DNA of 23,921 nt from Gracilaria domingensis (Eukaryota; Rhodophyta; Florideophyceae; Gracilariales; Gracilariaceae), in NCBI GenBank assembly GCA_022539475.1, contig VCMS01000245.1, forward strand, positions 1-23,921, written 5' to 3'. This document shows positions 1,031 to 18,138 of the stretch, one piece after another. The translations under genes were made by a program, and so were the position numbers. The notes below the pieces were generated by a model, which was not told the origin of the DNA, did not search any database, and was given only the letters and a program-made list of their open reading frames with translations. Every line of letters starts with the position of its first letter. The first letter of the stretch is position 1.

Positions 1031-1037
1031 TTCCCCA

Positions 1038-1204: not shown

Positions 1205-1254
1205 TTTAGGAACCTGCACCTGCTACTCGTGAGCTACGTACGCATCAAAAGTCA

Positions 1255-1772: not shown

Positions 1773-2332
1773 AGTAACCCAAAGCCTTTTTCTGCCGTTT
1801 ACATGTCGCAGAGCGCGAAGAGACGTGGTGAGGATTGCTTAATTTAGAACAAAGATACGTAGAAGGATATGGAAGCACGTACGAAAAGACTGCACGGAAA
1901 GACTGCACGGAATTACGGATGCGGATGATGTCCGCTTTATGGAGGCGTCCATTAGGCGGACATGAAGCGTACCTCATTCTCTTCCCCGCACTCTACTTTG
2001 TAGCGAGTGCGAGGGCGGAGAAAGGTACGACGGAGCGCCGCTCGTGATCCGTGCCATCCACATCTTCGCGTTCTACTCCGGCGAGGGAGAACGCGCGACG
2101 GTAACGGTAGGTCGGACGCCGGAGGCGCGGCGGCGGCGGTGGAGGGAAGAGATTTATTTTTCTGTGCGAGATTGGACAGGTGTACAGCGTACAACGTTGC
2201 GAAACCACAGGTTTATAACCAGTGGTAGATAATACGAGAAGTACACCCTTGTGTTGAGGTCGACGTGTACCTACGTTCCTTTTTGAACGAAAGCACGTGA
2301 TTTAAACTCAAAATATATTCTCCGTTCTGAGC
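1773..2332. other. Leader region upstream of transposase, no gene recognised
   Basis: No supported coding sequence. It holds a near-duplicate AAAGACTGCACGG pair near 1890-1915, a GC-rich block with GGCGGCGGCGG near 2125-2142, and the TTTAAA box at 2301. It may include the left subterminal part of the transposon, but no terminal inverted repeat could be defined by eye. Confidence 0.4.
2301..2306 (+). promoter_or_regulatory. TTTAAA core promoter box before transposase
   Basis: TTTAAA lies 32 bases before the first ATG (2333). The same hexamer sits upstream of the first ORF of both divergent trains (11408 and 12915), so it may be the common core element of this transposon's promoters. Confidence 0.4.
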
Positions 2333-5300
2333 ATGACGTCGATATTGACTGTCGCTCGACCTCCTTCTCCCTTCGGACGACCTTCCCTTGCAGTCTTTGT
2401 CTTCGTTTCTCGTTCATTTCTTCTTCCCATGGTCTACTACTGTACACATAAGAAGCGTGGGTGCCCCTTCGTTACTCGCCGAGGAGTCTTATCTCTTCAA
2501 CAGCATGTCAACCATTGCCTTTTTCGTCTGAAAGCAGCGCTGGAAGACGAAAATAGGCAGCCCATTCGGAGAAGCAAGCGTCTCAAGCTTTCCGCGCCCG
2601 CGCCCGCATCTTCCGAAACGGTCACTGCCCCTTGTCGCCTTCCCGAGCCTCCGGTGTCCGAGGACATCGTCGACCCCATTCCGTGCGCCCCTCCCATTCC
2701 GGACACTTCGCATTGTGTTTCTCCTTCCCCGGATCCCGCGTCATTAGAGCGAGAATACGGAAGCAGTTCCGGCCCAGTGCCTTCTGAGGAGGCCCTCGGT
2801 GATTTGCATATGGATTATCTCACGGTTTGTCTGGCTTCAGTAGCTTCCAACCTTGGTCATCGTGAGGCAGACGAGCTAATTGGGCTACTTCGGGACCCGC
2901 GATTCTCGAAAAGCGATTCAACGAGACCATAACAAGTTCCAAGCGCTGTACAGAACTGAAGAACGCCATTTTCGAACGATACGCCTCAAAGGACGGTTTC
3001 AATCGCAGAACTGTCTCGCCAGAAGGATGTAAGTTCAGCGCCACCCTCTACACGAGAGACCCCGTTCAGACACTTGTGAAACAGCTCCACTTGGCTAACA
3101 ACGAAAACACATTCTTCCACCCTATACCACAGACCAACTCCACGAAAATATCTCACCCCATGTCCGGCTCTCTCGCAATAGACGCCACCTCAAAACTTAA
3201 GGAAATGGTTATGGGCTTTTTGGATAGTAGAATAGTGTGGTACTCCCAAGAAATAAGTTACAGTGAATCTTTCGTAGGTCTTCTGCAGGTATACACCGAT
3301 AAGTCTTCAACAACTCTAAAGCAAACATCGGTTACCGCCTATCCTCTTCACCTCATATTTCTCAACTTCTCCGACGAGCTTCGCCGTAAGTGCATCCGTG
3401 ATGACCTCACAGTAGTGGCATACTTCCCTACTACACTGATCGAGGTTTCCGCATCTGAAGCAGACGCAATGCCATTCGTTTCTAGCAAGTCTCTACGCCA
3501 GTCCAGGATGCAAATCCTTCAAGAATCTCTTCGTCAAGTCCTGGAGCCCATTCTAAATCTCACGCAGAAAGGTTTTCAGTTCATCGGCGAAGACAAACTA
3601 AGTGGAGTGTGCCATCCTCTGCTTGCAAGTTATTGTGCGGATATTCCTGAGGCTAAGGACATTCTGTCCATTCTTCATGGGACCAAAACGGAAAGCCCGT
3701 GTCATAGATGCAAAGCCCCTCGCTCATCTTTATGCAGTCCTATTCCCACCTCATTCAACGGATGTTCTCAAAAGCACACGAAAAGCATCCAAAGACATAC
3801 ACAGCTATCTTGCAACATGCACAAAAATACGAGGCGGAAAGACGTCCACGTCGTGCGAGGGAGAGGAGATCTCAAGCGGATACTCTGATGCGTTCAAATT
3901 CCATATCTCTCATTCCTTCGTTCCTCGAAACTTCCGTAAGCCTTGGAATGATCCCGGGATTGTCTCCATACAGTCTGTTCTCATTCAAACATTACAAAAC
4001 TTGCATCTCGGTATCTCAAAGCTGATAAAAACGGCCACAATCGAGAGACTGCAGTCAGACACCCTGTGCACTACAATAGGAACATCTGCATCGCGTTCAT
4101 TTCGAACGATACGCACCCAACTCTTGAACCATGCAAACGCAATTCTAGCTGCCATAGAACGCGATTCTCCTGCCAAAGGTTTACATATCGATTTCTCCAC
4201 GCAGGAGAAAGGCAAATCTTTGAATGGTATCTTCACGAAAGACGGTCTCCGTGGAATGGTGGAGGCCAAAAACTACAAAGCACTTGACATGGTCTTCCCC
4301 TTCATAGGAGCATTCTTTGACATATGCTGTGGAGAACTGGACGTTGCCCCAATCACAACCGTTTTCTCTCAGTACTCGGACTTGCTTTCGACCTTATTCA
4401 GATACAATCGTGACCCGTATTGGACTGAAAGCTCTCTCCTGTGTCTTAGTTCGGAGATTGAAGCCTTCAAGCGTTCCGCAACAAAGACTCTGGCGGATTT
4501 TCATCCCTCCAGACTGGGAACTCTGAAGTTTCATCTTCTCGATCATCTAGTGGACGATATTCGCCGCCTGGGAAGTATCAAGTACTACGACGCAGGCATA
4601 TACGAACATGCACACCTGGTATTTAAGAGACACTACAAAAAGACGTCCAGAAGAACAGCAACGGCTGTGGAGGAGACTATTCGCTCCATTGAGCACGGAC
4701 ATGTTAGAAAGCAATGGAATGGCAATACTCCTTACCAGCGTAATCCAGGTTTACCAGGGACTTCCACACAGCTTCCTCGGTTTGCAATAAGAGGGCGTTC
4801 TTTCACTTTACGAGCTCTTCAACATTGTGTTTCAAGTATGTCCAGTTCAAAAACATGGACTGCTGTTAGAGAGATGTTCTCAAGTACGGACACAAGGTCG
4901 ATTCTTGACCAAATTGGTGAACAGGCCCTTCCTCCTTTCCTCAGTCTCGTGAAAGAAACACTGGATGAGCACTCTATTACATACTTCCCAGAAAAGACAA
5001 GGATAACTCTGGTGAATTCGGCCCTCGTGAAAGGCGGTTTCGTTCCGACTCTTGAACACTTCGATTTGTCTTCTAAGGCACTTAAGCTGGGACGACCCAA
5101 ATACCCCTTCATCCAACGTGTCTTCGCTTCTCCAGCATTTGGTCCCAGTAGAAAGCCAAAGTTTTCCACTGTATTGGTAAGCGGAGAAGATTCAGAGACT
5201 TGGGTTGCCCAGGTAGTCGCTCTGATTCGAATATCTCTCCTTGATTCTGCACTTACCGCACCAGAGGTGGCATTCGTCCGGTATTTCGAGGTTTTACCCC

Positions 5301-5605
5301 CAGCAACAAACATCGACCACATATTGAAATGCATATCTTTACGGTGCGCTACAAACGATGAAAAGAACCACACTCTTCCGTTCCCTCGTCATTCCAAAGC
5401 GGAGACTATCGTAGAGTTAACTCCTTGGTACGGGATGGTTCCGGCTTCTGCACTACAGGGAACTGTCCATGTTGTTCGATCAAACTACCCTGCTCCACCT
5501 TTTTGTCCTCCACTTCAATGGTTTCAACACCGATTCTACATCAATCGATTCTATCATGATTCAGATGAAGGACCAACTGAGCACGTTGATGTTGTACAGC
5601 CTTAA
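2333..5605 (+). pseudogene. Plavaka-type (KDZ-related) DDE transposase, frameshifted
   Basis: A DNA transposase that would cut and join the ends of its element in the nucleus. The N-terminus (ATG 2333, or 2429 just before the finger) has a zinc-finger-like CX6C...HxxHC motif at about 2441-2518, then a Pro/Ser-rich linker. The core shows the Plavaka order: VYTDKSSTT (first catalytic Asp, about 3290), TAYPLHLIFLNFSDELRRK, VVAYFP, ASYCADIPEAKDI (second Asp, about 3640), CHRCKAP, NLHLGISKLI (about 4000), then GMVEAKNYK (likely catalytic Glu, about 4265), KFHLLDHLVDDIRRLGS and YEHAHLVFKRHYKKTSRR. The frame changes near 2900-2925, near 3730 and near 3990. Coding sense is continuous across each shift, so these look like indels and not introns. 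It ends at TAA 5603-5605 and overlaps the convergent gene's stop. It is inactive as read. A related algal Zisupton/Kyakuja member is the main alternative. Confidence 0.75.
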
Positions 5606-6930
5606 ACATTAAGGGCTCCATCCCCTACATGTTCACCTTGTGGTGCCTTTTGTTGTGATCCTGTGCTACTTCCAAAATCGTTCATGTCCATTTCCTTGAA
5701 CTCCATATCCCCTTCCTTGCATTCACCAACGAAACAATCGCTAATAGACCCCAATCTTCGGCTCACACTGTCAATAAAAAATTGTTCTTTCACAGTGAGG
5801 TAAAGTCTTCCGTTCGACGGCATTCGATATCCAAATGTAGCCTCTCTCATGTCATTACCAAGAACCTTAGTCCAATCTTCCGTTGTCGTTCCAAAATTAT
5901 GAAACTCGCTGGAATTGGTCCTCAAGACACGTTGCCTAACATCCCCCAGAACAATCTTTAAACACAGAGGTAGCAGTTGGGCAAACGTCTTTGTAAACAG
6001 TTTCTGTCTCTGGCCACCCCTTGACACATCCGTACTTAGAAGGCTCACAACCGTCAACACCCAAGCGTCCAAACGTGCGAGCAACAGTATTTTGCCATCT
6101 AAAAAGGTGCCCGTATCCTTGTCTTCCACATCATACCCAATAAACTTCTTCAGTACTTGTACCCCGACACGGTTTTGGAAGAACAAGTCTTGATCTTCCG
6201 TCGGCATATCCTCGACATTGTCCGCATTGGAGTACTTTAGACGAACAAAGGGAGCTTTTCTCCACCATGAAGTGTTCGGTACACCATTTTCGTCAAGACG
6301 CAGTATGTTCTCCTGCGCTTCCTTCAACTGCATTGTGAGTTCGTCAGCATTCTCTTCTACCAGCTTTGTTCTTCTCCAAATCAGATCGTACCCCAGGAGC
6401 AGAAATAGTTTATCCCTCGTATTTCTCTTCCGAACGCCCACGACGTCACTCATGGTCTGCCGCATTCTCTGCCTAAGGCACATATCTGCACAAAGTTCCA
6501 GTATACACCTGTCGGTAAGAGATGCTTTTCTAATACCTTCCCAGCTCAACTCCTTCAACTCGCTTTCAACCATTTTCTTCAGCAAAGCATCTGGCCCCCC
6601 CTCTACCGACGGTGTGAACATGCCAAAACTGCCCAAGAGCTCCACGTGGTTTTGAGGAACCATGGATGAACCACCTTCCTCCGGCTCAATAAGCCCTTCC
6701 CCACTCTCAGTTGCGTCTTTCACCTTCTCGGCACGGTGACCCCAATTTCGGGTGAGCGACTCACCTTCGAGCCATAGCTCACTTGTTTCTCTCCTTGCCC
6801 ACGTAAGCATGTTGTGATACACTGCTCGAGCAACCCCTCGAAACTCGTCGCACACCTCAATTTTATGCTTATTTCGACCTGTCTGCCCAGGTTCAGCAGC
6901 ACGTGTACTCCTATCTCCCTCCTGTTTCAA
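5602..6930 (-). CDS. Transposon-encoded protein, C-terminal part, family unknown
   Basis: About 440 residues with no family that I recognise. The first 15 or so continue a coiled coil from the upstream ORF. Reading this frame back past the TTG at 6930 gives EKRLEEKDLVIEGLREALKQ, which is a heptad-like continuation of LNCLKEKVKTLQEDL in the 6954-7964 ORF. A single-base shift near 6990 therefore separates two halves of one ancestral protein. The rest is mixed alpha/basic with several Trp and Cys but no enzyme motif. The stop codon (5602-5604) overlaps that of the convergent transposase by two to three bases, which argues that both belong to the same compact element. The codon pattern looks like real coding sequence. 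Function unknown. Confidence 0.6.
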   Translation of the reverse strand: MKQEGDRSTRAAEPGQTGRNKHKIEVCDEFRGVARAVYHNMLTWARRETSELWLEGESLTRNWGHRAEKVKDATESGEGLIEPEEGGSSMVPQNHVELLGSFGMFTPSVEGGPDALLKKMVESELKELSWEGIRKASLTDRCILELCADMCLRQRMRQTMSDVVGVRKRNTRDKLFLLLGYDLIWRRTKLVEENADELTMQLKEAQENILRLDENGVPNTSWWRKAPFVRLKYSNADNVEDMPTEDQDLFFQNRVGVQVLKKFIGYDVEDKDTGTFLDGKILLLARLDAWVLTVVSLLSTDVSRGGQRQKLFTKTFAQLLPLCLKIVLGDVRQRVLRTNSSEFHNFGTTTEDWTKVLGNDMREATFGYRMPSNGRLYLTVKEQFFIDSVSRRLGSISDCFVGECKEGDMEFKEMDMNDFGSSTGSQQKAPQGEHVGDGALNV

Positions 6931-6953
6931 TGCCTCTCTTAGCCCTTCAATGA

Positions 6954-7964
6954 CTAGATCCTTCTCTTCAAGCCTCTTTTCAAAGCCGTACTCTGCTCTT
7001 GGGCGATCTTCACTAGAATTCCCCCAACCATCAAGTCCTCTTGTAGCGTCTTAACCTTTTCTTTCAAGCAATTCAGTTCATTTAAAAGATCACGTCTGTT
7101 CATAGAGGTTGAATTCACACCAGTGTGGATATCTTCCGGTATTTTCCTAGCCTCTTCGGCGACAGGCCCCGGTAATGCCGCAAGATTCGGTGTTATTTCG
7201 TTATTGGAACTATCCTCCTGTGCCATACCCTTAGACACGAGAGGCTGCAGGCGTTCTGTGTCCACCCTTGGCACGGCTCCGAGCTCCAACTCCCGTGTCT
7301 GTCTTCCTCCATGGCATCGTATATCAGATGAATTGGGCCTCGTACGAGCTGCAACAGCCCCCGTTCTGGAAAGAGGGGAAGGTCGAGGAGTAACTCGTTT
7401 ATCAGTTGTCTCTCGATTTCTTATAGTCTTTCTCCCTTGTCCGGACCCATTGCGAGGCATAATACGATTCATAGCGGCCCCAGTTCTAGAAGACAGGGAG
7501 GGACGTGACGATCTTAATATACTAGGGCTCTCACGACTTCTCGTCATTGTCCCTTGTTGTCCAGATCCACTGGGCGGCGTAACCCGCGCCCCAGTAGCTC
7601 CGGTCTTCGATATCGGCCGGGGACATGAAGGTTTTGGTGTCATACGAACCTCTTCAGTTCCAGATGTCATGCCCTCCTGTCCTGACCCGCTGGGCCGAGT
7701 TACCTCATCTTCTTGAGGAGCAGAGACAGATGCACGATTTGAATTATCGGCAGTTGACGGCACGACATCGTTCGCTGATCCACGAATTCTTGACGCAATC
7801 CCGGAAGACGCCCCGCTGCGAGATGGGCGAGAGAGTACTGTAGAAGGACGCCCACTGACTCTCTCCTTCGTCGAGGACGACTTCCGTTTAGGAAGTGCGG
7901 TGCTTGTAGCCTGATTCGTATCGTCCGATGCTCCTTCTTCTGTCCACTCTTGTTCCGCTGCGTA
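6954..7964 (-). CDS. Low-complexity protein with three 40-residue repeats and a coiled coil
   Basis: N-terminal half of the same ancestral protein as 5602-6930. The frame is open from 7964, just after a TAG at 7965-7967, to the TAG at 6954. No in-frame ATG lies near the start. A GTG occurs at 7763, the first in-frame ATG is at 7670, and a short ATG reading (MGITPRK) begins at 7993 in another frame, so the true start is uncertain or damaged. Residues (from GTG 7763) 24-63, 64-103 and 104-143 are repeats of exactly 40 residues with the pattern GSGQxG...RPS..SRTGA...R..P; a partial earlier unit is visible upstream. The C-terminus (about 220-265) is a charged heptad helix. It is Ser/Arg/Pro-rich and probably disordered. 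It could be a scaffold or a nucleic-acid-binding partner. No known family. Confidence 0.6.
   Translation of the reverse strand, partial: YAAEQEWTEEGASDDTNQATSTALPKRKSSSTKERVSGRPSTVLSRPSRSGASSGIASRIRGSANDVVPSTADNSNRASVSAPQEDEVTRPSGSGQEGMTSGTEEVRMTPKPSCPRPISKTGATGARVTPPSGSGQQGTMTRSRESPSILRSSRPSLSSRTGAAMNRIMPRNGSGQGRKTIRNRETTDKRVTPRPSPLSRTGAVAARTRPNSSDIRCHGGRQTRELELGAVPRVDTERLQPLVSKGMAQEDSSNNEITPNLAALPGPVAEEARKIPEDIHTGVNSTSMNRRDLLNELNCLKEKVKTLQEDLMVGGILVKIAQEQSTALKRGLKRRI
7335..7694 (-). repeat. Three 120-bp in-frame tandem repeats
   Basis: Encodes the three 40-residue GSGQxG...SRTGA units of the coiled-coil protein. The units keep the reading frame and length exactly, although their sequence has diverged substantially. 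This suggests past selection on repeat spacing. Confidence 0.75.
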
Positions 7965-8239
7965 CTATTTCACTTTCTCGGCGTTATACCCATGTTGTGG
8001 AGATAAACGGGGTAATGAAACGAAATTGTTGGGGGGGGGAGGGGGTGGGGGGGGGTGCATGGTTCAGATATTCCGGGAGACTCCGCACGTCCTGCTTTTT
8101 AGGAATTTTAAGTGCCCAATGGGTCGCAAATATCGCCGTTACTAATAGATGAAGAGCTCCAGTGTACATGTACAACGCATATTGCAGGCAGCTGCAACAT
8201 TCACAAGCATATTTACTTTCTATTCGGTACTGAACTCAT
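7965..8239. other. Gap between SET ORF and coiled-coil ORF
   Basis: About 275 bases without a gene. It holds a G-tract cluster (8031-8055) and presumably the promoter and start of the leftward coiled-coil gene. No TTTAAA box was seen here. Confidence 0.4.
8031..8055 (+). repeat. G-tract cluster, candidate G-quadruplex
   Basis: Runs of nine, five and nine G separated by single A and T bases. The leftward transcript would carry the C-rich strand. It sits just upstream of the damaged start of the 6954-7964 ORF. Such runs are also prone to length errors in assembly. Confidence 0.7.
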
Positions 8240-8758
8240 CTATTGCTCCAATGTCAGAGCCCAGTCCCAGGCGTACTGCTCTCCGTAGTTGAAATACAAC
8301 TCTTCGCCCCTCTCAATATCTCTCACTGCTCTACAACGAAGTAGAGCATAGTTAGAAAGGTCGGACTTAAACTGTATCACGGACTTCGCTTCCACCATCT
8401 GCACATTGGCACTTCGAGTCCTGTTTGACCGGGGCTGCGATAAATCGGGATTCCCGGCATGATATCCGGCGTCGTTAATGTAGCCACCGATACAAAAAGG
8501 CGCCGAGACAATGTACACTTCGCTCTCCTTTCTATCCTGAGCCTGTCCTGGTCTGTTCCTCAGGTGCAGAAGCTCCGTACCAGTCACAGTGACCATCATA
8601 GAAAACAACTTGTACCGCACTGGAGTTGCTCCGAGACAGCCACTTCCATACGTTAAGTGTCTTTCCTTCCGGTTCGTCAGATCCGTGTATACCAAAGTTC
8701 CATAGAAATGACAGATAGTTTCCCCAGCCAATATCTTATGTTCCGTGAACACCTCCAT
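8240..8758 (-). CDS. SET-domain lysine methyltransferase-like segment
   Basis: SET domains transfer methyl groups from S-adenosylmethionine to protein lysines, often on histones. Visible parts in order: RAGMEVFTEHKILAGETI (the G-x-G-VF motif at the start of SET), ICHFYG, then GGYINDAGY...RSANVQ (the NHxxxPN-type region, with the conserved Asn kept) and RAVRDIERGEELYFNYGEQY (the ELxxDYG-type end with the conserved Tyr). There are no pre-SET or post-SET Cys clusters. The ORF is 172 residues from ATG 8758, but the motif begins before it: the residues HPRAG just upstream are in frame and are preceded directly by the TGA (8774-8776) that ends the methyltransferase ORF. The SET segment is therefore in the same frame as the methyltransferase and was probably its C-terminal domain. 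Confidence 0.8.
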   Translation of the reverse strand: MEVFTEHKILAGETICHFYGTLVYTDLTNRKERHLTYGSGCLGATPVRYKLFSMMVTVTGTELLHLRNRPGQAQDRKESEVYIVSAPFCIGGYINDAGYHAGNPDLSQPRSNRTRSANVQMVEAKSVIQFKSDLSNYALLRCRAVRDIERGEELYFNYGEQYAWDWALTLEQ

Positions 8759-8773
8759 ACCAGCACGGGGATG

Positions 8774-9895
8774 TCAAATCTTAGAAGATGCTACATGTAC
8801 GCGATAGCGATTGGCTTCAACAGTCAACAGCAAATGCATATCCATTAGATTCAGAGCTCCTCGGTACTTCTCGTCCCAAAGATCTACAGTATGCTGTCCA
8901 CACTTGTCGACAAACTCCCAGTCCTTCCAGTATCTTCCTAGGAACTGAGTAATATGTGCAGGCATCACTTGGTACTGGGGGTATCCAAATAGAGCCTCCC
9001 ATTCAAGCCGACTTCGGTCCCGATGTGGAACCCGTTCATAAGTCGTTGAAGCAGCATCCACCACCTCCTGTTCAACCACGATGTCATTCTTCCCCTCGCG
9101 AAGAACTTCGGCCATAAGAGTCGTTACATGGTGCTTCGCATGGCTGAAACATGGCCTATTCTTCTCGCACCCCAAGAACTTCCTATGCTTTGTCAGCGAT
9201 AGGCACGCCATACCCGTAGAAAAAGTTCCCGCGAACATGTCCATGGCAAGATCACCCGGTCTTGTGAACCGACATATCAACTCTTTCATCAACTCCCTGG
9301 ACTTCTGCTCCGGTCTTATGTACTGCCCACTTGGTACTGAACTACCTGGCTCATTTACCTTCCATGTCAACCACTCCCCCGCTCTCGGTTTTGGCACCCG
9401 GTCAATTACATTCCTGTTAGCCGGGAAAGTAGAAGGAATGAAATTGTTCTCCTCAAATGGAGTAAGACTGGCTTCCTCGGATGGTCGCAATCCACGCTTC
9501 ACCCCATGAACGGCGTACTCCGTTACGGGCTGTATCCCAAACTTCCGTGGATTCCCTCCAACATTACTTCGATCCCGGATGAACACCAGTGGATTCCCAT
9601 CCACTTTAAACGAAGGAATGAGTTCTGGTTTACCTTCGCTTCCAGCTTCATCTTTCGTACTCGCCGTTTCCGAAAGTATCCTGTGCCAAACATGAAACTG
9701 TGCCATGGCACAGAATATGATGAAGTGCCCACCTGACCGAAGCGCGGAACTTATTAAGTCAGCCGTTCGGATCATGTCATCCTCACTGAAGACATCGTGA
9801 GAACTATTCCGTTTGTTCCTCTTCCTTCGAGTGTTGAAGGGAGGGTCTGTTAGGACAAGCTGTGCCTCACCCCATAAAATCTCACTCTGATTCAC
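8774..9895 (-). CDS. Bacterial-type DNA amino-methyltransferase (beta motif order)
   Basis: SAM-dependent methylation of exocyclic amino groups (N6-adenine or N4-cytosine) in DNA. The catalytic motif IV, LVLTDPPFNTRR, is near the N-terminus (D17-F20 from the GTG at 9895). It is followed by SGGHFIIF, then a 120-residue probable target-recognition region, then RPEQKSRELMKELI (motif X-like) and GDLAMDMFAGTFSTG (SAM-binding motif I, D219), ending in FLGCEKN. Motif IV before motif I is the beta-class arrangement of bacterial restriction-type enzymes, which is unusual in eukaryotes. Motif I reads FAGTFSTG where FxGSGTT is common. The true start is upstream: the frame is open to 9931 and reads GPEAHTHETFVNQSEILW, which joins the 9892-10089 ORF after a one-base shift. 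The TGA at 8774 separates it from the in-frame SET segment. Confidence 0.85.
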   Translation of the reverse strand: MNQSEILWGEAQLVLTDPPFNTRRKRNKRNSSHDVFSEDDMIRTADLISSALRSGGHFIIFCAMAQFHVWHRILSETASTKDEAGSEGKPELIPSFKVDGNPLVFIRDRSNVGGNPRKFGIQPVTEYAVHGVKRGLRPSEEASLTPFEENNFIPSTFPANRNVIDRVPKPRAGEWLTWKVNEPGSSVPSGQYIRPEQKSRELMKELICRFTRPGDLAMDMFAGTFSTGMACLSLTKHRKFLGCEKNRPCFSHAKHHVTTLMAEVLREGKNDIVVEQEVVDAASTTYERVPHRDRSRLEWEALFGYPQYQVMPAHITQFLGRYWKDWEFVDKCGQHTVDLWDEKYRGALNLMDMHLLLTVEANRYRVHVASSKI

Positions 9896-10089
9896 AAACG
9901 TTTCGTGTGTGTGTGCCTCAGGTCCTTCATGTCACAGTTGTACGCTACAAAGTGTGACTTTCTCATCCCCTTCCACACCGTGTCCATATTCATTCGAAGG
10001 AGACTGGATATCCCCTTCATGGGCGGCTCAATACCAGTCTTTTGGATGTTGTACCCGGCAACCCGAGATTCATGCTCCGCACAATTCAC
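9892..10089 (-). pseudogene. N-terminal segment of the methyltransferase, displaced frame
   Basis: Sixty-five codons in another frame, ending ...SHFVAYNCDMKDL, which leads directly into the methyltransferase reading at about 9925. A substrate or metal-independent Rossmann lead-in of this kind (hydrophobic strand, then CDM) is expected before the DPPF block. Both joints (about 9925 and about 10087) need only a one-base-type change, and I read this as part of the same gene. It has no ATG of its own at 10089 (GTG overlapping TGA). Confidence 0.55.
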
Positions 10090-10622
10090 CGCCTCTCGAA
10101 GTCGTCGCCATCGGAGCTCACGAGATCTATATACTCTCGACGAGGTGGGGCTGGGGCAGATTTGGTCGAAGAAGGTTCGGCATTACCGGAAGTTTTAGGA
10201 GTTTTCGTCAGTTCAATATCGGGTTTCCCATGAATGCCCACATTGAACCCTGCCGCATGACGCATACCCTGTATCGGTTTCCATAGCAACTCCGAAAAGT
10301 TCTGAAATCGTGCAGGCAACTCACCGGAGTCAGAACCAGATACGGTATCCATCCGCATCTCCGAGAACTCTATCCAGTTCCTCATCTGATCAGCCCGTCA
10401 GCTATAGAGGCTATCGTGGGTGCATATGGTTTCGAGGTCTGTCAAAAATTCCTTAGCCAGTATTCGGAGGTTTGTATCGCATTCATCACTCAAGGTCTCT
10501 ACCGATCCACTAGTACTGCTCTGTGGCACATCCTGTGTGTTCAATCGAGTACTCTGGCTGGGCGGGGCATAACCAGACTCCCGTGTCTCTAGCGCTGTAT
10601 ACTTCAAAGTCTGCATATTCAT
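10086..10622 (-). pseudogene. Upstream linker segment of the methyltransferase train
   Basis: Two ORFs in one frame (10398-10622 and 10086-10385) separated by a single TGA at 10398-10400. The first part is Ser/Thr-rich (STSGSVETLSDECDTNL), the second has an aromatic motif RFQNFSELLWKPIQGMRHAAG and a Pro/Ser tail (SAPAPPRREYIDLVSSDGDDFE). No known domain was recognised. The frame is also that of the 10635-11378 ORF, so it links the unknown N-terminal domain to the methyltransferase. It is probably a hinge in a multi-domain protein. Confidence 0.5.
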
Positions 10623-10634
10623 GTAAATGTATGG

Positions 10635-11378
10635 TTATACCATGTGCTGAACGTTTGTGTATCCAAGATGACCCGCAAAACAACTCCATGCCCATACGAC
10701 CTCACTGATACCGAATCCCAGTCGATCATAGTTGTCTTTGGAGATTGACGTAAAAGTGGGTATGTACACAGATGGTGCATGGTTCACTTTTCGTTTCTTT
10801 TTCTGTTGTTTCTTCTTCATCATTCTGATGTTGTCGTTCTCTCCCATTATGTGGCCGAGGTATGATAAGTATCTAACGACCTCAAATGGGTTCACAGCTG
10901 TTGGTGGGATGAACACTGTCGTCTTCAGAACCTGCTTTCTCCTGGTCATGAAATAACCAACCAGGCATCGCACCGGTAGGTATATACCCATATCCATAGA
11001 GAGAAGGAAAAAATTGCGGAGTCTCTGGTCCTCATCCCCGTCCTTCTTGTCAAGAAGCTTCGTTACAAGATATCGTTGTTCCACAGGTTTGTTATTCACA
11101 ACACTCTTTCGCAGCTGTTGCAGTGTCAAGTTCTGCAGGTTCTTGGAGTTAGTGGCCTCCTCAAACATCTTCCTTGCCTCCGGAATATCCTTATAGTTCT
11201 CGGCGCAGAACTCTATTAGCCCTCTAAACCCCACGTCCCGTGGCGGATCAGGGCCTCCATCGCTGTCTGCCAAAGCATCGCGAAGAACCAAGAAAAGTCT
11301 GACATATGCATGGAACGCCGGAGGGGGAGCACTCATGTCGATAAGATGTATCTCCTCTCCATCATCGGTGGAATCCAT
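10635..11378 (-). CDS. Unknown N-terminal protein, first ORF of the leftward train
   Basis: The ORF is 247 residues, from ATG 11378 to TAA 10635-10637. The ATG is about 30 bases downstream of TTTAAA (11408-11413). The sequence has an acidic start, an amphipathic helical region (about 60-110), a hydrophobic block FFLLSMDMGIYLPVRCLVGYF (about 125-145), a basic run KKKQQKKKRKV (about 195, a possible nuclear localisation signal) and a Trp-rich end. I do not recognise a family. After the stop, the same frame continues through PYIYMNMQTLKY into the 10622 ORF, so the stop may be a CAA-to-TAA change inside a longer protein. Alternatively this is an independent small gene. Confidence 0.6.
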   Translation of the reverse strand: MDSTDDGEEIHLIDMSAPPPAFHAYVRLFLVLRDALADSDGGPDPPRDVGFRGLIEFCAENYKDIPEARKMFEEATNSKNLQNLTLQQLRKSVVNNKPVEQRYLVTKLLDKKDGDEDQRLRNFFLLSMDMGIYLPVRCLVGYFMTRRKQVLKTTVFIPPTAVNPFEVVRYLSYLGHIMGENDNIRMMKKKQQKKKRKVNHAPSVYIPTFTSISKDNYDRLGFGISEVVWAWSCFAGHLGYTNVQHMV

Positions 11379-11388
11379 CGCTTCATCG

Positions 11389-11490
11389 CAAACAACGGAG
11401 GCGAACCTTTAAATGGCACTTACGCTAGGCACCCCCGCTTTCGGCAGCTCCTCCCAGCGCACTGCCAGTCTCGTCCGTGTCCGTGTCCAC
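11389..11490 (-). promoter_or_regulatory. Left arm of duplicated divergent promoter
   Basis: About 100 bases matching the reverse complement of 12836-12938 at about 93% by eye, with two one-base gaps. It covers TTTAAA (11408-11413), GGCACCCCCGCTTTCGGCAG and TCTCGTCCGTGTCC. It lies just upstream of the first leftward ORF. Both gene trains would therefore share regulation. Confidence 0.85.
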
Positions 11491-11502
11491 TCGGTGCGAT
11501 AG

Positions 11503-11570
11503 CGTCGCGTGTCGGCCACGTCGCGATTCGGAGCTATTGCAAAGGTCGCGTATTGTGCTAAAAGTCGCGG
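11503..11570. repeat. Four GTCGCG repeats
   Basis: GTCGCG occurs near 11505, 11520, 11546 and 11564 on the plus strand, just outside the left promoter arm. The spacing is irregular. It could be a cluster of short binding sites; no equivalent cluster was seen beside the right arm. Confidence 0.5.
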
Positions 11571-11629
11571 ATCAAGTGGGTGTGAAGCGCTAGTTTTTTC
11601 TAGTTTGATATATGTGCACGGCGTGTGCA

Positions 11630-11819
11630 GCGAAATCACTGCCGGAAGTGCCGGGAGGAGTGTTTTGGGAGGCCTCCAGAGGGTGCCAGAATGTGGCTAG
11701 AACGTGCCCGCGGGCGGGGGGGGGGTCAGTCGTGTTAGGGTAGGTACCCTAACACGACCGGACCCCCCCGCCCGAGGGCATAAAATCGCACATTTTTCAA
11801 AAAATCGCCCAAAACGTGC
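11630..11819 (+). repeat. GC-rich foldback unit, copy 1
   Basis: Runs from GCGAAATCACTGC to CAAAACGTGC. Its core is a hairpin at about 11706-11780: GCCCGCGGGCGGGG, then a near-perfect palindrome CGTGTTAGGGTA/TACCCTAACACG at 11731-11756, then CCCCGCCCGAGGGC. It is inverted relative to copy 3 (12459-12636). Confidence 0.85.
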
Positions 11820-11894
11820 GGAATCAGTGACCGAATCTGTACTATCAGTGGTTCCCACCTGTTCTACACGCTGCAGCAGTATATGCACCAGGCT

Positions 11895-12087
11895 GTTGCA
11901 ATTGTGCAACATGGCACTTGCAGGGGTTGGTCCAATCCGATTGCGAGAAATTGCAATCACCCTTCCCCTCTGCAATCGCAATTGCAATCTCCCTCACCGT
12001 TTTCAATCGCGATTGCAATCATCTCTCTCCTTCGCAATCACGAATGCGATTGGGAGTATTTGTGCAATCGCAATCGCAATTGCAATA
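11895..12087. repeat. Cluster of GCAATYGC palindromic iterons
   Basis: Short inverted motifs built from GCAAT/ATTGC recur: GTTGCAATTGTGCAAC (11895-11910), ATTGCGAGAAATTGCAATC (11939-11957), TGCAATCGCAATTGCAAT (11971-11988), CAATCGCGATTGCAATC (12004-12020), CGCAATCACGAATGCGATTG (12033-12052) and CAATCGCAATCGCAATTGCA (12065-12084). They sit at the centre of the divergent region. The arrangement resembles iterons or partition-type sites. They are a reasonable candidate target for the ParB-like protein encoded next door, but that is inference. Confidence 0.75.
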
Positions 12088-12319
12088 CAACGTAGATCTG
12101 GCAGCTCTCGTTATGTTCTACATTGTATGTTTAACTCTACGCTAATCTCAAACATAATATGAGAGTGTAGAGAAAGCTTTGTTTACGTACGAATAACTTT
12201 AGAACGGCGCTGTTCCGGATGTGGTGATCGCAGAGAGAGTAGGTGTGGTGCGCGTGGGAATTAGGGAGCGTTTGCGGGATGGAGAAGACGCGTTGGTGCA
12301 TTGAGGTGACGCGGTGGGT
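12088..12319. other. Spacer between iterons and foldback
   Basis: No gene. It contains a weak inverted repeat CTCTACGCTAATCTCA...ATGAGAGTGTAGAG (about 12134-12172), and is otherwise unremarkable. Confidence 0.4.
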
Positions 12320-12461
12320 GCCGGAAGTGCCGGGAGGAGTGTTTTGGGAGGTCTCCGGAAGGCGCCAGAATGTGGCCAGAACGTGCCCGCGGGCGGGGGG
12401 GGGGGGTCGGTCGTGTTAGGGTAGGTAACCTAACACGATCGGACACCCCCGCCCGCGGGCA
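12320..12461 (+). repeat. GC-rich foldback unit, copy 2
   Basis: Same unit as copy 1 from GCCGGAAGTGCCGGGAGGAG onward, with its own TTAGGG/CCTAAC palindrome at about 12410-12437. It faces copy 3 across a spacer of about 38 bases (ACGTTTTGGGCGATTTTTTG...), so 12320-12620 forms a very large hairpin with arms of about 120-140 bases. Confidence 0.85.
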
Positions 12462-12636
12462 CGTTTTGGGCGATTTTTTGAAAAATGTGCGATTTTATGC
12501 CCGCGGGCGGGGGGTCCGGTCGTGTTAGGGTACCTACCCTAACACGACCGACCCCCCTCGCCCGCGGGCACGTTCTGGCCACATTCTGGCGCCTTCCCGG
12601 GACCTCCCAAAACACGCCGCCCCGCAGTGATTTCGC
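12459..12636 (-). repeat. GC-rich foldback unit, copy 3 (inverted)
   Basis: Reverse-orientation copy of 11630-11819, including the same GCGAAATCACTGC end (12624-12636), the palindrome at about 12523-12548 and the AT-rich tail (CGATTTTTTGAAAAATGTGC). Copies 1 and 3 bracket the iteron cluster as an inner inverted repeat. Confidence 0.85.
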
Positions 12637-12835
12637 TACACCCGGCCGCCGGTACGTTGGCGCCGCTGTCCACGTGTATTGGCGGGAGTAGGTTGTACAT
12701 GAAAGTGAATGAGTGTACTCTTGACTACTATGCAAAGCATTTGAAGAGCACGATTAGAGAGCGCGACCATTGCTCGCGTGAGTGATCATTGCGCGAACTC
12801 CACGACTCTAAAGCGTACAATCAGCGTGCGAGCGG

Positions 12836-12938
12836 CCACGGACAGGACACGGACGAGACTGGCAGTGCGCTGGGAGGAGCTGCCGAAAGCGGGGGTGGCC
12901 AGCGTAAGTCGCCATTTAAAGGCTCACCTCCGTTCTTG
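12836..12938 (+). promoter_or_regulatory. Right arm of duplicated divergent promoter
   Basis: Inverted copy of 11389-11490, with TTTAAA at 12915-12920 and the same GC-rich upstream segment. The first rightward ATG is at 12997, about 77 bases after the box, where the left side has about 30; the leader has therefore diverged while the promoter stayed similar. Confidence 0.85.
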
Positions 12939-12996
12939 TATCGTCCAGAGCGAGCGTATTGTTGATATACAAATTTCACTGCAATAGGGGTTCAAC

Positions 12997-13881
12997 ATGA
13001 AGCCAACTCGTGTTAGAAAGCGTACGCAAAGCGTGACTCCTCGCACTCGGCGGAGCACTCGATCATTGCAAGGTGGAATGCGGGTTTCTCTGCAGATGGA
13101 TATTGAGAATGAAGGAAAGGTGATAGTCGGGGAAGCGTTGTTGCATGGAATTGGAAGTGTTCTACGCCGCGAGTTGAACGGGAAGCAATTGGACCCAGGT
13201 CTTGTGGTGGTTCATAATACTCTCATCAGTCGAAGCGGTCACACGTTCTACCCTTACCGGGCGGAGGGCCTGGATCTTCCACAATACATCCAGGATCTCC
13301 GGACGGCCGCTCCTTGGGATGAGAAAATGATGGAACCGGTGGCAGCCAGCATTCCCGCGGCCAAGCGACGAACGGTGAGTGCTATGAGTGAGGTGAGGAC
13401 GCCGACAAGCCGCACGGAGCCAATTCGAAGTTCATCAACACCGAGAGGTAGCGCATCAGTAGCACCTCCGCGGGCAGGTCCGTCGTCTTTTATGAAGCGG
13501 TCTATGGAGACGAGAGCATCCCCAGCTACGAAGCAGACAGGTCAAACAAAGTCTACCTCCGCTACGAAGCCCACTGCGTCGAAAAGGGCATCTCCTGCGA
13601 TGAATCAGACCGTCGACACAAGGGGATCTTCTGCGTCGAAACAGACGGTTCAGCACGGGACGGCTGTGCAAGAAGAGGAAGATGAGATCATAAAAGGTCC
13701 CCTTCCAGACGCGGATGCGCAATCCGCACAAGGAGCTGGTCCATCTGTACCCCAAACTGCACCAGAAACTGCGGAGCAGCAGGACGATGACGTTGTGCTT
13801 CTGTCCGCAAGAATGGCACGTTCAAGTTTTTCTGGCGAGCGGTCTGGAACACAAGGGACACCTACTCGGAGCAAGAGGTAG
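12997..13881 (+). CDS. Unknown N-terminal domain of the ParB-like protein
   Basis: The ORF is 294 residues from ATG 12997. Residues 1-25 are Arg-rich (possible nuclear localisation or DNA contact). Residues 28-115 form a compact conserved-looking domain (VIVGEALLHGIGSVLRREL, LVVVHNTLISRSGHTFYPYR, APWDEKMM). From 120 on it is Ser/Thr/Ala-rich with degenerate repeats of the type KQT...RASPAMNQT. It ends acidic (EEEDEI, DDDVVLL). No family recognised. The TAG at 13879-13881 is the only break before the ParB-like ORF: the same frame continues as RRIRQKVPIVNLNQYRM, so this was probably one protein. The stop could be a CAG-to-TAG change. Confidence 0.65.
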   Translation: MKPTRVRKRTQSVTPRTRRSTRSLQGGMRVSLQMDIENEGKVIVGEALLHGIGSVLRRELNGKQLDPGLVVVHNTLISRSGHTFYPYRAEGLDLPQYIQDLRTAAPWDEKMMEPVAASIPAAKRRTVSAMSEVRTPTSRTEPIRSSSTPRGSASVAPPRAGPSSFMKRSMETRASPATKQTGQTKSTSATKPTASKRASPAMNQTVDTRGSSASKQTVQHGTAVQEEEDEIIKGPLPDADAQSAQGAGPSVPQTAPETAEQQDDDVVLLSARMARSSFSGERSGTQGTPTRSKR

Positions 13882-13908
13882 AGACGAATTCGTCAGAAGG
13901 TACCAATC

Positions 13909-15021
13909 GTGAACCTCAATCAGTACCGGATGGTTGTTGTTACTGTTGACATCACTCTGGTGGACACTCCGCCCAATTTACTCCGTGGAGTAATTAAACG
14001 TCACGGTGAAGCCCTTGTGAAGAGTATGGAGGAGCAGGGGATATTGCAGTCGATGGGTTCTCCAGTGGTGGCCTTACAAGATGCTACTGCGGGAGAGAGG
14101 GATACTGACAAGGGACGCCTAACGAAGAAGTGCTTCATTGTAGATGGTTTGCATCGTCTGAAAGCTATACAATATTTGGCAGCGACTGGTGCACCGAATT
14201 GGAAGCGATTAGCCAGGTTTTGGCGTTGCAATCTGCTGATACGAAGAGATGGGAGGCCCATTGGGATGAAGGAATTGTTATGTGTTGCTTCGTACCTCAA
14301 TGAGTCGAGGAGTACCATGCGAAGGATGATGTTTGCGGACAAGATACACTCTATAGTTAGTGTTGTCGCCATTCTAATTGAAGATGTTGAGGGGGTGACG
14401 CCAGCAGACGTGGATCCTGCAGAAGGGACAGAAGTGTTGAAGGAGAGCCAACTGAATGGGACTGTGCAAGAGCGTCAGTATCTGAGATATGCCAATGTCG
14501 CCCTGCAACTCATGTCTCGTGAGGGAATGCTGGCCCATTTCGAGGATATATGTGAGAGTGTGAGTGACATAGGTCTCACACCTCTGTCCCATACTCCGCT
14601 ATATGTTTTGGATGCCGAGGAGTTTTCCTTCATTCTAGACTGTCTTCAGATGTTTCTATTGAAGCGCAAGTCGACGAAGACAAAGCAATGGAAACGCTTT
14701 GAGGAGGTTCGAGGTTTCTTTTATGATAGAGCAGTGTCTCTGTTCCGCGCGGCTCGAGCAGTGAGGAATGAATTGAACGAGGAAGAGTCGATGGAAGTGT
14801 TCCTGAAACGCGAAATCAGTCTGTCTGCTCCATCGAATGAAGATGACGTTGAAGACCCAGATAACAACGCAGCTGTGAATCAGTTCCTTTTGGGACAAGT
14901 TGTGAACTTCAACACATTGCCGCGTGTTCGGAGCAGGATGAACTCAATTAGAACTGCCACGACATCCGTTCAAAATCGATTGCGGACGATGCTCAAGTTA
15001 ATTCCCCCCCCGCACCAGTGA
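13909..15021 (+). CDS. ParB/Srx-like domain protein
   Basis: Pattern of the ParB/sulfiredoxin-like fold, which binds DNA and, in ParB, CTP. After VDITLVDTPPNLLRG comes a helix (ALVKSMEEQGIL), then FIVDGLHRLKAIQYLA with the signature DGxHR (D79, H82, R83 from the GTG at 13909). This stands where ParB has GERRxxA and related nucleases DGxHR. It is followed by WKRLARFWRCNLLIRRDGRP and a helical region that includes ASYLNESRSTMRRMM. The remaining 200 residues are helical with no named domain. The GTG at 13909 is not a believable eukaryotic start; the frame continues from the 12997 ORF. At the 3' end a run of eight C (about 15004-15011) precedes the stop, and a one-base change there would open into the 15018 ORF. 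Confidence 0.65.
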   Translation: MNLNQYRMVVVTVDITLVDTPPNLLRGVIKRHGEALVKSMEEQGILQSMGSPVVALQDATAGERDTDKGRLTKKCFIVDGLHRLKAIQYLAATGAPNWKRLARFWRCNLLIRRDGRPIGMKELLCVASYLNESRSTMRRMMFADKIHSIVSVVAILIEDVEGVTPADVDPAEGTEVLKESQLNGTVQERQYLRYANVALQLMSREGMLAHFEDICESVSDIGLTPLSHTPLYVLDAEEFSFILDCLQMFLLKRKSTKTKQWKRFEEVRGFFYDRAVSLFRAARAVRNELNEEESMEVFLKREISLSAPSNEDDVEDPDNNAAVNQFLLGQVVNFNTLPRVRSRMNSIRTATTSVQNRLRTMLKLIPPPHQ

Positions 15022-15644
15022 AGCAGTCCGTGACGAAGAGGAGGACTCCCGCTGCTGCTGCTGCAACATCTGCCAGTGAAGAAGGGGAGCCGCGAAGAAG
15101 TGCACGAGAACGGGCGCAGGTGAGTTATAGGGAAATTGAGCACGGCCGAAATCGAGGTGCCATAGAAGTTCTGGATAGCTCTGAAGAAGAACAGCGGGCT
15201 CCGCCGAGGAAGAAACGGAGAAAGGCTTTCACACAACAGATGAGATCTACTCTGAACAGCATGACACCGGATGACCTGATGTCTCAAATAAATGAACATG
15301 TGCTGAGAGGAAGGTCGATGAAGGTTCAGTTCATGGCATTGGAAGAGGGAGCGAATGCAGAGAACGCAGGCAGTTCTGCATTTGTGGATGACGAAGAGCT
15401 TCTTGATGTGACAGTTCCACGGGTTGTCACTGTCGAGAAAGATGCTGCGCCAGACGATCAGCAAGAGACAGGTGGGGGGTCATTTGATGACGAGTTACCT
15501 ACAGCTCTTCAGGAATCTGAAGAGCACGGACTTGTTCGAGGAGACCCATATGATGGCCCACCGAACCCATCATGGTGCGGGTATGTCAGGCTGAGACCGC
15601 AAGAATGGCAAGGGAAGAACATAATTGAGCACAAGGACCCCTAG
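15018..15644 (+). CDS. Charged linker between ParB-like and dioxygenase ORFs
   Basis: About 208 codons beginning at a GTG that overlaps the previous TGA. It opens basic and Ala-rich (KRRTPAAAAATSASEEGEP), has a probable nuclear localisation signal (PPRKKRRKAF, about 55-64), then an acidic middle and a more ordered end (PSWCGYVRLRPQEW). No known domain. It follows the ParB-like ORF after a C8 slip and shares its frame with the dioxygenase ORF, separated only by the TAG at 15642-15644. Best read as an interdomain linker of one long protein. Confidence 0.6.
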   Translation: MKQSVTKRRTPAAAAATSASEEGEPRRSARERAQVSYREIEHGRNRGAIEVLDSSEEEQRAPPRKKRRKAFTQQMRSTLNSMTPDDLMSQINEHVLRGRSMKVQFMALEEGANAENAGSSAFVDDEELLDVTVPRVVTVEKDAAPDDQQETGGGSFDDELPTALQESEEHGLVRGDPYDGPPNPSWCGYVRLRPQEWQGKNIIEHKDP

Positions 15645-15659
15645 CTCAGAGTCATTCAC

Positions 15660-16913
15660 TTGCCGAAGGCACATAGGTCGGAGCTGCTAAGTGTCTCAGA
15701 TCTCAGAGATGTACACCATCTTGTCTTTTGGCACGCTGCAAGGGCTGAACATCGCCTACGGGCGGAGACATTTGGTATGCAGTATCCTCGTACTCGGCCG
15801 ACAGGTATGGATGATGAAGAGGTGCTGTGGGTTGCTGCGAAGGAGCATGACGAATTTGGGCAAATGTTCTTCGCCCGAATGCAAGCTGAACTAAGGCAGA
15901 ATGGATATTGCGTGCTTGATGGCTTTGCGACGGATAATGGTGTCTCTAAATGGGAGGAGTGGGAAGAAGTTCGGGAGTTCGGAGATGTGTCGGGGAAGTT
16001 GGTGGAATTCTTCGAGAATGAGTATGGAGCGATGCAGGATATACCGAAAGGGGAGGAACAGAAGTCGTTTGTTCAAATCATCATCGATGATGAAGAATGG
16101 AAGGACCGGAGCGATGGACCATTTGAGGGGAGAGTGATGTCGACACGTTGGGGTACGGTGGAGAAGCCGGAGGATAATGAGGAGCTCAGGTGGGTTGTAA
16201 GATGGCGTGCTTTACTTGATGTTCGAATGGGTACAATTGCTGCGGCTTTGGGACTATGGGACAGTGAAAGGGAAGCTGTGAAGATGTACACTCCGAAAAC
16301 TGGTGGTCGATTTCTGGGGACCACGAGAAAGTGCAAGCGCCAGACGCTGCACACCGACCTCAGTGGTCTGGTTACGAAGGAAACAATGAATACTGGTAAC
16401 CCCGGATACTTTTTAATGGCCTCTGGGAAAGAGCGCTTTCCTCTCTGGGTGAGCGCTGGAAGCCATCAACTGGTGGGGATGAACAACCAACAGTTGCGAG
16501 TGATGTCGGAGGTGTATCCAGCGAAGAAGATAATCATCCCACCGTACTCTGTATTCGTGGGCCGTGGTGATGTGACACATGCTGGAGCAAGTGGGAAGGA
16601 CAAGGTGGATAGGCTCGAGTCTATGGATTTGCTGGTTAGATACCACATGTACATGGTACCAGAGGGCTACGCACTACCTGATGCTGTTCATCAGGTGCAG
16701 GATTTCCGACCCACGTTTGTCAATGGTGACGAGGAGGAGGAGGCGGAGGATGAACTGTTGTCCGATAAGGAGGGTGGAGCGGTTGACATGGAAGAAGACC
16801 AAGTGGTCGTGGAGATTGGTGTGGAAGCGGACGCCGGTAGAACCGAAGTGCTCGAGAGTAGTAGTGATGACGATTTGCCAATAATGAGGCTGCGAGCGCC
16901 TCGAAGTGGATGA
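15660..16913 (+). CDS. 2OG-Fe(II) dioxygenase-like protein, TET/JBP possible
   Basis: Enzymes with this double-stranded beta-helix oxidise substrates with iron, oxygen and 2-oxoglutarate. Counting from TTG 15660, the iron ligands are in RQTLHTDLSG (H231, D233) and GRGDVTHAGASG (H307). The 2-oxoglutarate-binding Arg is in LLVRYHMYM (R327). NPGYFLMASGKERFPLWVSAGSH supplies the intervening strands. The first 150 residues are helical with YCVLDGFATDNGV, a typical lead-in to this fold. The tail (about 350-417) is very acidic and ends SSSDDDLPIMRLRAP. The start codon is not ATG; the frame continues from the upstream ORF across one TAG. With a ParB-like domain and a DNA methyltransferase nearby, a DNA base oxidase (TET/JBP-like) is attractive, but a protein or small-molecule hydroxylase is not excluded. 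Confidence 0.7.
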   Translation: MPKAHRSELLSVSDLRDVHHLVFWHAARAEHRLRAETFGMQYPRTRPTGMDDEEVLWVAAKEHDEFGQMFFARMQAELRQNGYCVLDGFATDNGVSKWEEWEEVREFGDVSGKLVEFFENEYGAMQDIPKGEEQKSFVQIIIDDEEWKDRSDGPFEGRVMSTRWGTVEKPEDNEELRWVVRWRALLDVRMGTIAAALGLWDSEREAVKMYTPKTGGRFLGTTRKCKRQTLHTDLSGLVTKETMNTGNPGYFLMASGKERFPLWVSAGSHQLVGMNNQQLRVMSEVYPAKKIIIPPYSVFVGRGDVTHAGASGKDKVDRLESMDLLVRYHMYMVPEGYALPDAVHQVQDFRPTFVNGDEEEEAEDELLSDKEGGAVDMEEDQVVVEIGVEADAGRTEVLESSSDDDLPIMRLRAPRSG

Positions 16914-17227
16914 GAATGAGATGATTAGTAAATTATGAGTGTCTTGCGAGTATTAAGAGTAGTATACTATTGCAAGGCTATACATATGAACATGGAAAAG
17001 GTGCGGCAGGCTGGTAATTGAACAAATGTCATACGTCTTTGGTCCAGTTTCGTCTAATTGCAACATGCCACATGCTCGGTATCGTTAACATCATTGGTGG
17101 CACCATTCAATTCGCAATGAACATGTAGCGTCCTAACACTTCTGAAACTGCACTTAAGGTTGCTTTTAAGAGAAGTAGGAAACTGAGAAGTCTATGCAGT
17201 GCCTGTCTGTGTGGTACTTGTGGCACC
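16914..17227. other. Spacer between the transposon ORFs and the HAD relic
   Basis: About 314 bases, AT-rich, no gene. The right boundary of the mobile element should lie here or nearby, but I could not match it to a left terminus by eye. Confidence 0.4.
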
Positions 17228-18086
17228 ATGGTGACTGTACCAGGAAAAATGGCAGAGGAACAGAGAGACTTGGCGGAAATTTCACCTAATACCTTGTCTA
17301 AGTTCATATATGCCAATGGTTACGGTATATTAAGTTCCGTTGATGGAACGTTGAGAAGAGAAGGAGAGTCAATTCCAGAAGAAGTTGTGAAGTGTATGAA
17401 GTTCATTGACGAACGTGTTGGTTTCGGACTTGTCACAGGGGTGATGTGGGCGACGTGGAGCGGAAAATGGAAGGACTCGGAGAGTTTAAGTTTGGTGTGT
17501 CGGCGAATCATGGAGCTTTCCTCCGTTTCTCTGACGAGAGGGAAATTAAGGCTGCATTCAATGATCACACCCTTGACCACACTGTTGACGGACTACTGTT
17601 CCTGGCAAGGGATTTGAATAGGAGGCATGGTGTTGCGAATGATGATTGAAAGGGTTCGTGGAGAGCAGAAGTGATAATGGCCTTCCCAATTTCGTGTACA
17701 ACAAACTGTGGCAGTGGAGAGAAGAAGTGGATTCTGCTATTGGGGACCTGTTGCAGAAGATGGATGCGTTTCTTATCTATCCTGGCGATAAAAGTTGCGA
17801 AATTGTGGACAAGCGATACACAAAAGGAAGCGGAGGAGCAAATCTTGTGGATAATGAACCGAGATTTATTGATACGGATGACGTCGTGACGTTCGGAAGT
17901 GCTTTGAGCGACGGGCCTTTGCATGAGGTAGGCGTGTACGGCGTTCACGTCAAAGAAGATTGTATCCCGGGTGGAGTACACAACCTGTTCGAAAGCGTGG
18001 AGGATTTACATTCGACGATTATGTTGGTGGCTCTGTTGTACGGCTACGAGGAAAAGCGGCACGATAAAAACCACCATGATTCATAA
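17228..18086 (+). pseudogene. HAD-superfamily phosphatase, decayed paralogue
   Basis: Frameshifted relative of the intact gene at 18139-19089. The ATG frame (17228) reads ANGYGILSSVDGTLRREGES and runs to about 17440. The match then moves to a second frame (ERKMEGLGEFKFGVSANHGA, about 17455-17640) and a third (VESRSDNGLPNFVYNKLWQW onward, from about 17655) up to TAA 18086. The shifts are small, with no splice-site pair of plausible length. The catalytic DxDxT motif reads SSVDGT, so the nucleophilic Asp is Ser, and motif IV has become GSALSDG. Catalysis would be lost even without the shifts. It lies tail-to-tail with its paralogue, with 52 bases between stops. Confidence 0.85.
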
Positions 18087-18138
18087 AAGGGTATTGAGAT
18101 ATATACGACACTTTTATTACTGAGATCTCATATCCTAG

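Follow-up and report, generated by a model that had tools for sequence, protein, structure and literature searches.

Genome expansion in the red alga Bostrychia moritziana was reportedly attributed by Petroll et al. in 2025 to giant EnSpm/Plavaka elements, which are said to share host group, transposase group, giant size and several accessory genes with the element described here, although Bostrychia belongs to a different red-algal order from Gracilaria. The present element lies in a Gracilaria domingensis (red alga) stretch of 23,921 nucleotides at the start of one contig, called the window below. We consider it very likely that it is a recently active giant cut-and-paste DNA transposon of the Plavaka type (EnSpm/CACTA-like). 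Its ends are defined, one insertion has a 2-bp duplication, and the genome holds many copies, some with intact frames; the genes are colinear and include two conserved divergent fusion genes, which may act together as an epigenetic counter-silencing kit.

Plavaka elements are placed with EnSpm/CACTA (PMC12730594). Fungal TET+ Plavaka and Kyakuja elements carry a dioxygenase as an accessory gene beside a Plavaka transposase, as the Gracilaria element does, and PlavakaA also makes 2-bp duplications; they differ in host and termini (TGT..ACA or CATCA..TGATG), and in Gracilaria the dioxygenase is PhyH-like and fused to ParB, with a methyltransferase-SET writer added (PMC12730594). In Phytophthora, HarbingerS and MuDR are likewise DNA transposons bearing a SET methyltransferase, but their transposases are others, and in Gracilaria the SET domain is fused to a DNA methyltransferase (PMC12730594). 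The 21.5-kb Sola1-1_Ec32 of Ectocarpus encodes a 1104-aa protein with ParB and amino-methyltransferase and is thus a seaweed transposon with the same two accessory domains; however, its transposase is of the Sola-1 type, both domains are in one protein, and neither SET nor dioxygenase is mentioned in the text consulted (PMC12477816). The bdelloid N4CMT is a prokaryote-type permuted amino-methyltransferase with a chromatin domain in a eukaryote, but it is a host gene with a chromodomain, has no SET fusion and is not transposon-borne (PMC8885841). The giant repeats of Amoebidium are intron-poor clusters that can reach 50 kb and carry a Plavaka transposase, and their genes have relatives in red algae and dinoflagellates, whereas many of these genes are tyrosine recombinases and the host is another (PMC11244446).

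An original prediction, made from the letters of the window, had spoken of a new epigenetic cargo and had drawn on a fungal setting. Algae were already known to harbour giant EnSpm/Plavaka elements and ParB-methyltransferase accessory proteins; what is new, as far as the literature searched goes, is that a methyltransferase-SET fusion and a ParB-dioxygenase fusion occur side by side in divergent orientation, with intact copies, and their role is one that we infer. No published description of the Gracilaria element was found in this literature, which mostly excludes subscription journals. The fungal setting did not hold, as the closest named proteins come from Gracilaria domingensis and are 92-93% identical to the element's own.

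The prediction had placed a giant transposon at positions 2333..16913. Comparison of multiple copies in the Gracilaria domingensis genome (77.9 Mb, 680 contigs), where segments of the window recur in many places, upheld the transposon but not this extent, and defined its ends at 632 and 23702 (Table 1). The left end is common to the window and six other copies, each with a different flank. At the right, 38 of 49 rows of a genome search with the right-end segment terminate at window positions 23698-23713, and past this point only the window itself and the copy on contig C169, which has the same right flank, continue. The termini, 5'-CGTCTGT..ACAGACG-3', form an imperfect inverted repeat and match neither the PlavakaA nor the PlavakaB termini named above. 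The joined flanks, GACTCGGTG, occur uninterrupted at 64 genome sites (≤3 mismatches; control 0), which demonstrates a duplication of 2 bp, TC, at the one insertion tested; Plavaka elements duplicate 2 or 3 bp.

Five segments were followed through the genome (transposase, methyltransferase-SET, ParB-dioxygenase, HAD and right end), and 22 of 161 placements hold at least two of them with orientation agreeing and position within 1.5 kb, an agreement that is the grouping rule itself. Placements with a single segment dominate because the searches list best candidates only and contigs break inside the repeat. The 161 placements were typed from 37/37, 37/38, 36/68 (HAD), 32/49 (right end) and 45/47 (methyltransferase-SET) rows; second pieces and short or partial rows were omitted, and a copy split over contigs is counted more than once. 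Each search scored its best 37-46 candidates only, which makes copy number uncertain; the overlap of neighbouring segments (5 shared between 36 HAD and 32 right-end placements, 6 between 37 ParB-dioxygenase and 36 HAD placements) suggests a rough figure of about 200. With common termini, one empty site and colinear genes the element is a single mobile unit, as had been supposed, and genes at separate locations or with termini of their own were not seen among the element copies in the genome. A telomeric location, to which many left-half copies near contig ends had pointed, was rejected, since right-half copies sit inside contigs and the contig ends fall at varied points within the repeat.

The intact transposase carries the Plavaka domain PF18759 (E 6.8e-19, 68.7 bits, cut-off 26.3), in agreement with the prediction; PF18759 is the only family listed at E up to 1 and KDZ is not among the matches, so that the KDZ affiliation suggested earlier is not supported. 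The convergent stops seen at 5602-5605 are those of the transposase and of open reading frame (ORF) 2, and they do overlap. The element had also been called decayed. In the window the transposase frame is interrupted by three 1-bp gaps, which are found in none of 13 other aligned copies, one of these being a contig 99.96% identical to the window; the breaks are therefore most simply explained as assembly errors near the contig end. The transposase is one unbroken frame in nine of the 13 copies read and broken in four, a proportion that may be high because the copies were partly chosen as best-scoring matches. Pairwise difference in the transposase region amounts to 0.06-2.3% among 13 copies (L002 stands for the window's locus). 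Changes present in more than one copy comprise 13 synonymous, 9 nonsynonymous and no stop, where 27% synonymous is expected without selection, and private changes (41 synonymous, 71 nonsynonymous, one stop) have a weaker synonymous bias. Judged from these frames and substitutions the transposon family is recently active and not decayed, and the case illustrates that reading a single contig can take sequencing gaps for decay. Intron models joining the window frames were rejected because the same frames are simply continuous in other copies. Strong CpG decay resembling repeat-induced point mutation was likewise rejected, as it was not seen in the transposase-region comparison.

The first fusion gene combines an N-terminal domain (N-domain), an N6_N4 amino-methyltransferase and a SET domain. 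Its methyltransferase belongs to PF01555, and the DPPF motif stands ahead of the cofactor motif, a permuted order as in DpnA/CcrM-like enzymes. In copy C169 (L027) the methyltransferase shares its frame with an N-terminal stretch of ~480 residues, and this frame continues into the SET domain across the position of the window stop at 8774, which is an arginine in all four other copies read there; the gene of this copy also has single-base breaks. The metagenome protein P0005 (ENA) holds N-domain, methyltransferase and SET in one 1015-aa chain, with 37% identity over 99% of the query. Both the bacterial-type amino-methyltransferase and the SET domain of the prediction were thus recovered, the latter fused downstream of the former in C169 and P0005. 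A genome search with P0005 gave 45 placements. In 9 of them query residues 13-1011 align without a stop in a 1055-aa frame, and another 3 are partial matches free of stops. The N-domain and methyltransferase have a synonymous share of 44% between the window and copy C169. On these alignments N-domain, amino-methyltransferase and SET are one intronless gene in other copies.

The second fusion gene joins a ParB-type part to a 2-oxoglutarate (2OG) Fe(II) dioxygenase, and AlphaFold2 (AF2) models agree with the prediction of both domains. The ParB part shows the ParB N-terminal fold followed by a helical DNA-binding domain, as in ParB CTPases, and its structure matches ParB, Noc, KorB and pNOB8 ParB. 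The dioxygenase part has the double-stranded beta-helix with HxD..H and Arg of the 2OG superfamily and matches KanJ, AsqJ, PrhA, SnoN and other 2OG dioxygenases; H288 and D290 are invariant in 11 sequences, and the distal His and the Arg are present in the alignment rows reaching them. No TET/JBP family is listed for the 2OG protein at E up to 1 and none is among the 50 structure matches listed, a result that neither supports nor discounts a TET/JBP identity. When the ParB and 2OG alignments were run as profiles against PDB sequences, no meaningful match emerged.

ParB and 2OG parts are joined in the Gracilaria protein P0007 and in the metagenomic proteins P0008, P0009, P0012, P0013 and P0014; in P0007 a large part of the dioxygenase core is missing and residues of the ParB motifs are changed, and P0008 stops short of the last strands. 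P0006, the other of two Gracilaria matches, is the dioxygenase part only, and a ParB part was not seen in the alignment of the metagenomic 2OG match P0010 (the ParB check of the metagenomic 2OG matches left out P0011, P0015 and P0016). A genome search with P0009 yielded 46 scored placements; in 13 of them neither match has a stop and both lie in a single frame of 1290 aa or more; this stop count covers the ParB and 2OG matches, not the linker between them. A second group of placements, 36-38% identical to P0009 in the dioxygenase part, also retains the pair. The synonymous share in ParB between the window and copy C169 is 40%. As far as these frames and homologues tell, ParB and dioxygenase are one protein in other copies.

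The two fusion genes point away from each other over a 1.6-kb centre. The stretches upstream of them form an inverted repeat, which consists of 65 nt at 97% and 27 nt at 89% in the window and of 93 nt with 100% complementarity in copy C169, and this arrangement fits a shared, duplicated promoter. When the 45 methyltransferase-SET placements were compared by hand, a ParB-2OG gene facing away was present 1.9-3.1 kb off in eight. Distant relatives of both fusions occur in the same genome (G000:C6:482978-484741, C289:26798-29686, C382:40531-43722, C20:221257-224088); with 52-56% identity to P0005 and 29-48% to P0009, they suggest further element families.

From these domains we propose a counter-silencing or self-marking role for the fusion pair. 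The permuted DPPF methyltransferase would mark the DNA of the element, more probably at adenine N6 than at cytosine N4, and SET, as part of this protein, would add methyl groups to the histones of that chromatin. Loaded on the element as a CTP-gated sliding clamp, the ParB domain would carry the fused dioxygenase along the DNA, and the dioxygenase would oxidise a silencing mark set by the host, be it on DNA, on histones or on RNA. Both fusion proteins would be expressed together from the duplicated inverted upstream regions. A bolder version, which we regard as possible but rather doubtful, is that the transposon encodes a self-addressed chromatin programme, with one protein writing a prokaryote-type base mark as well as a histone mark and a divergently encoded ParB-clamped oxidase removing host marks, that would make its epigenetic state host-independent.

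Several observations weigh against the transposon with its counter-silencing kit as we read it. Stops are present in 33 of the 45 methyltransferase-SET placements scored, and the dioxygenase and right-hand genes have 26-29% synonymous changes among five or six copies, which is no excess. The methyltransferase motif I (FAGTF) departs from the consensus, and the acidic residues that would form the transposase's catalytic site were not located. CpG transitions exceed other C-to-T changes in frequency only ~1.5-fold (15 per 350 opportunities versus 34 per 1192, with changes taken from the whole stretch and opportunities from the coding part), and hence give no strong sign of cytosine methylation to counter. 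Finally, the centre holds a 26-bp palindrome, CGTGTTAGGGTANNTACCCTAACACG, at window positions 11731-11756, 12412-12437 and 12521-12546, a candidate ParB site. It has 1377 matches in the genome (≤2 mismatches; control 0), often clustered ~110 bp apart among the matches listed, and by hand comparison those on contigs C2 and C6 lie outside the known element placements there. This genome-wide abundance weakens a parS-like role, and the palindrome is probably a separate hairpin or MITE-like (miniature inverted-repeat transposable element) repeat.

The main rival explanation is self-limitation or host defence, in which the writer helps to silence copies. It has a parallel in the bdelloid N4CMT, an amino-methyltransferase with a chromodomain that places its mark on transposons and has been connected with silencing (PMC8885841). 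In Gracilaria, by contrast, the writer is transposon-borne, present in many copies and accompanied by a dioxygenase, and we think this explanation unlikely. Lower still is the probability that the fusions are passenger cargo, captured by chance, without function for the element, hitch-hiking and decaying. The stops in the methyltransferase-SET placements speak for it, as do the neutral-like substitutions that recent copies show in the dioxygenase and right-hand genes, and giant algal transposons often bear genes of unknown function (PMC12477816). Yet both fusions have kept open frames and can be recognised next to homologues that share only 33-49% identity, and also in the distant placements of the same genome, which requires long purifying selection, and the divergent pairing is the same in the eight placements. 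A virus-like or virus-derived element in place of a transposon is a further rival, since giant viruses also have amino-methyltransferases and SET genes. In one survey Amoebidium giant repeats with flanking Plavaka transposases adjoin viral insertions (PMC11244446). A viral origin is nevertheless highly improbable: neither fusion had relatives in three viral-contig scans (few peptide patterns each, of limited sensitivity), phage records held no ParB-2OG relative and matched the methyltransferase domain alone (66 records, ten listed at 25-26% identity), and no virus structural family is among the Pfam matches. Co-located separate insertions, for which the nested repeats in the centre could be cited, deserve hardly any credence in view of the common termini, the colinear spacing and the one empty site, and the colinear copies have already refuted them.

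The giant Plavaka-type transposon of Gracilaria brings together giant transposons of algae, eukaryotic DNA methyltransferases of prokaryote type and ParB clamps, each known before on its own. Its two fusions form a compact system for testing how a transposon may control host chromatin, with intact copies in a seaweed whose genome is sequenced, and the homologues in metagenomes indicate that it is not a lone oddity.

Table 1. Features of the element and its borders in the window (positions are those of the whole stretch)
Feature	Position	Strand	Remarks
Whole element, 23,071 bp	632..23702	.	common left end, right-end stops, colinear segments
Left target duplication copy, TC, 2 bp	630..631	.	joined-flank empty sites
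Right target duplication copy, TC, 2 bp	23703..23704	.	joined-flank empty sites
Left terminal inverted repeat, 17 bp	632..648	+	matches right repeat at 13/17 positions
Right terminal inverted repeat, 17 bp	23686..23702	-	imperfect partner of left repeat
Subterminal repeats	658..1777	.	21-bp tandem (658-701), 152-bp direct repeat (1251, 1626)
Plavaka transposase, intronless	2429..5605	+	intact copies: 1059 aa if counted from this ATG, 1091 aa from 2333
ORF2, function not assigned	5602..8001	-	798 aa from first Met in copy C187; broken frame in window
N-domain / N6_N4 amino-methyltransferase / SET fusion, ~1055 aa	8240..11378	-	broken in window
Upstream arm of methyltransferase-SET gene	11391..11482	-	inverted repeat with 12845-12937
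GC-rich palindromic centre	11640..12644	.	three copies of 26-bp palindrome
Upstream arm of ParB-2OG gene	12845..12937	+	inverted repeat with 11391-11482
ParB / 2OG dioxygenase fusion, ~1300 aa	12997..16913	+	broken in window
ParB-type CTPase fold and helical domain	13945..14859	+	AF2 model; position carried over from L027:5444-6358
2OG-Fe(II) dioxygenase domain	15489..16751	+	HxD..H..R present; AF2 model; carried over from L027:6988-8250
HAD-like protein 1	17130..18089	+	named by eye from likeness to adjoining HAD gene; no Pfam match
HAD hydrolase (PF08282)	18139..19209	-	E 1.9e-10 in window, 1.1e-11 in L022
ORF, function not assigned	19641..20653	-	open in L020-L023, split in L024
Ribulose-phosphate 3-epimerase-like gene	20997..21707	+	also delimited as 20949-21707; PF00834, E 3.2e-53

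The right-hand genes (two HAD-like, one ORF and one epimerase-like) all sit within the repeat. HAD-like protein 1 is split in the window and open in other copies (319 aa in L020-L023, 305 aa in L024), the HAD hydrolase is open in L020-L023 and split in L024, and the ORF next to it had no Pfam match above cut-off. The first part of the epimerase-like gene (20928-21396) is missing in three of four other copies read (L022-L024) and present in L021 as far as L021 reaches. The arrangement of the subterminal repeats differs from copy to copy. Outside the element, the window flanks (1-631 and 23703-23921) read by eye as pieces of a Gypsy reverse transcriptase gene, and just right of the window, past an N run, L025 holds at 1151-4620 a second, more diverged copy of the element's left part (88.7% in the longest piece).

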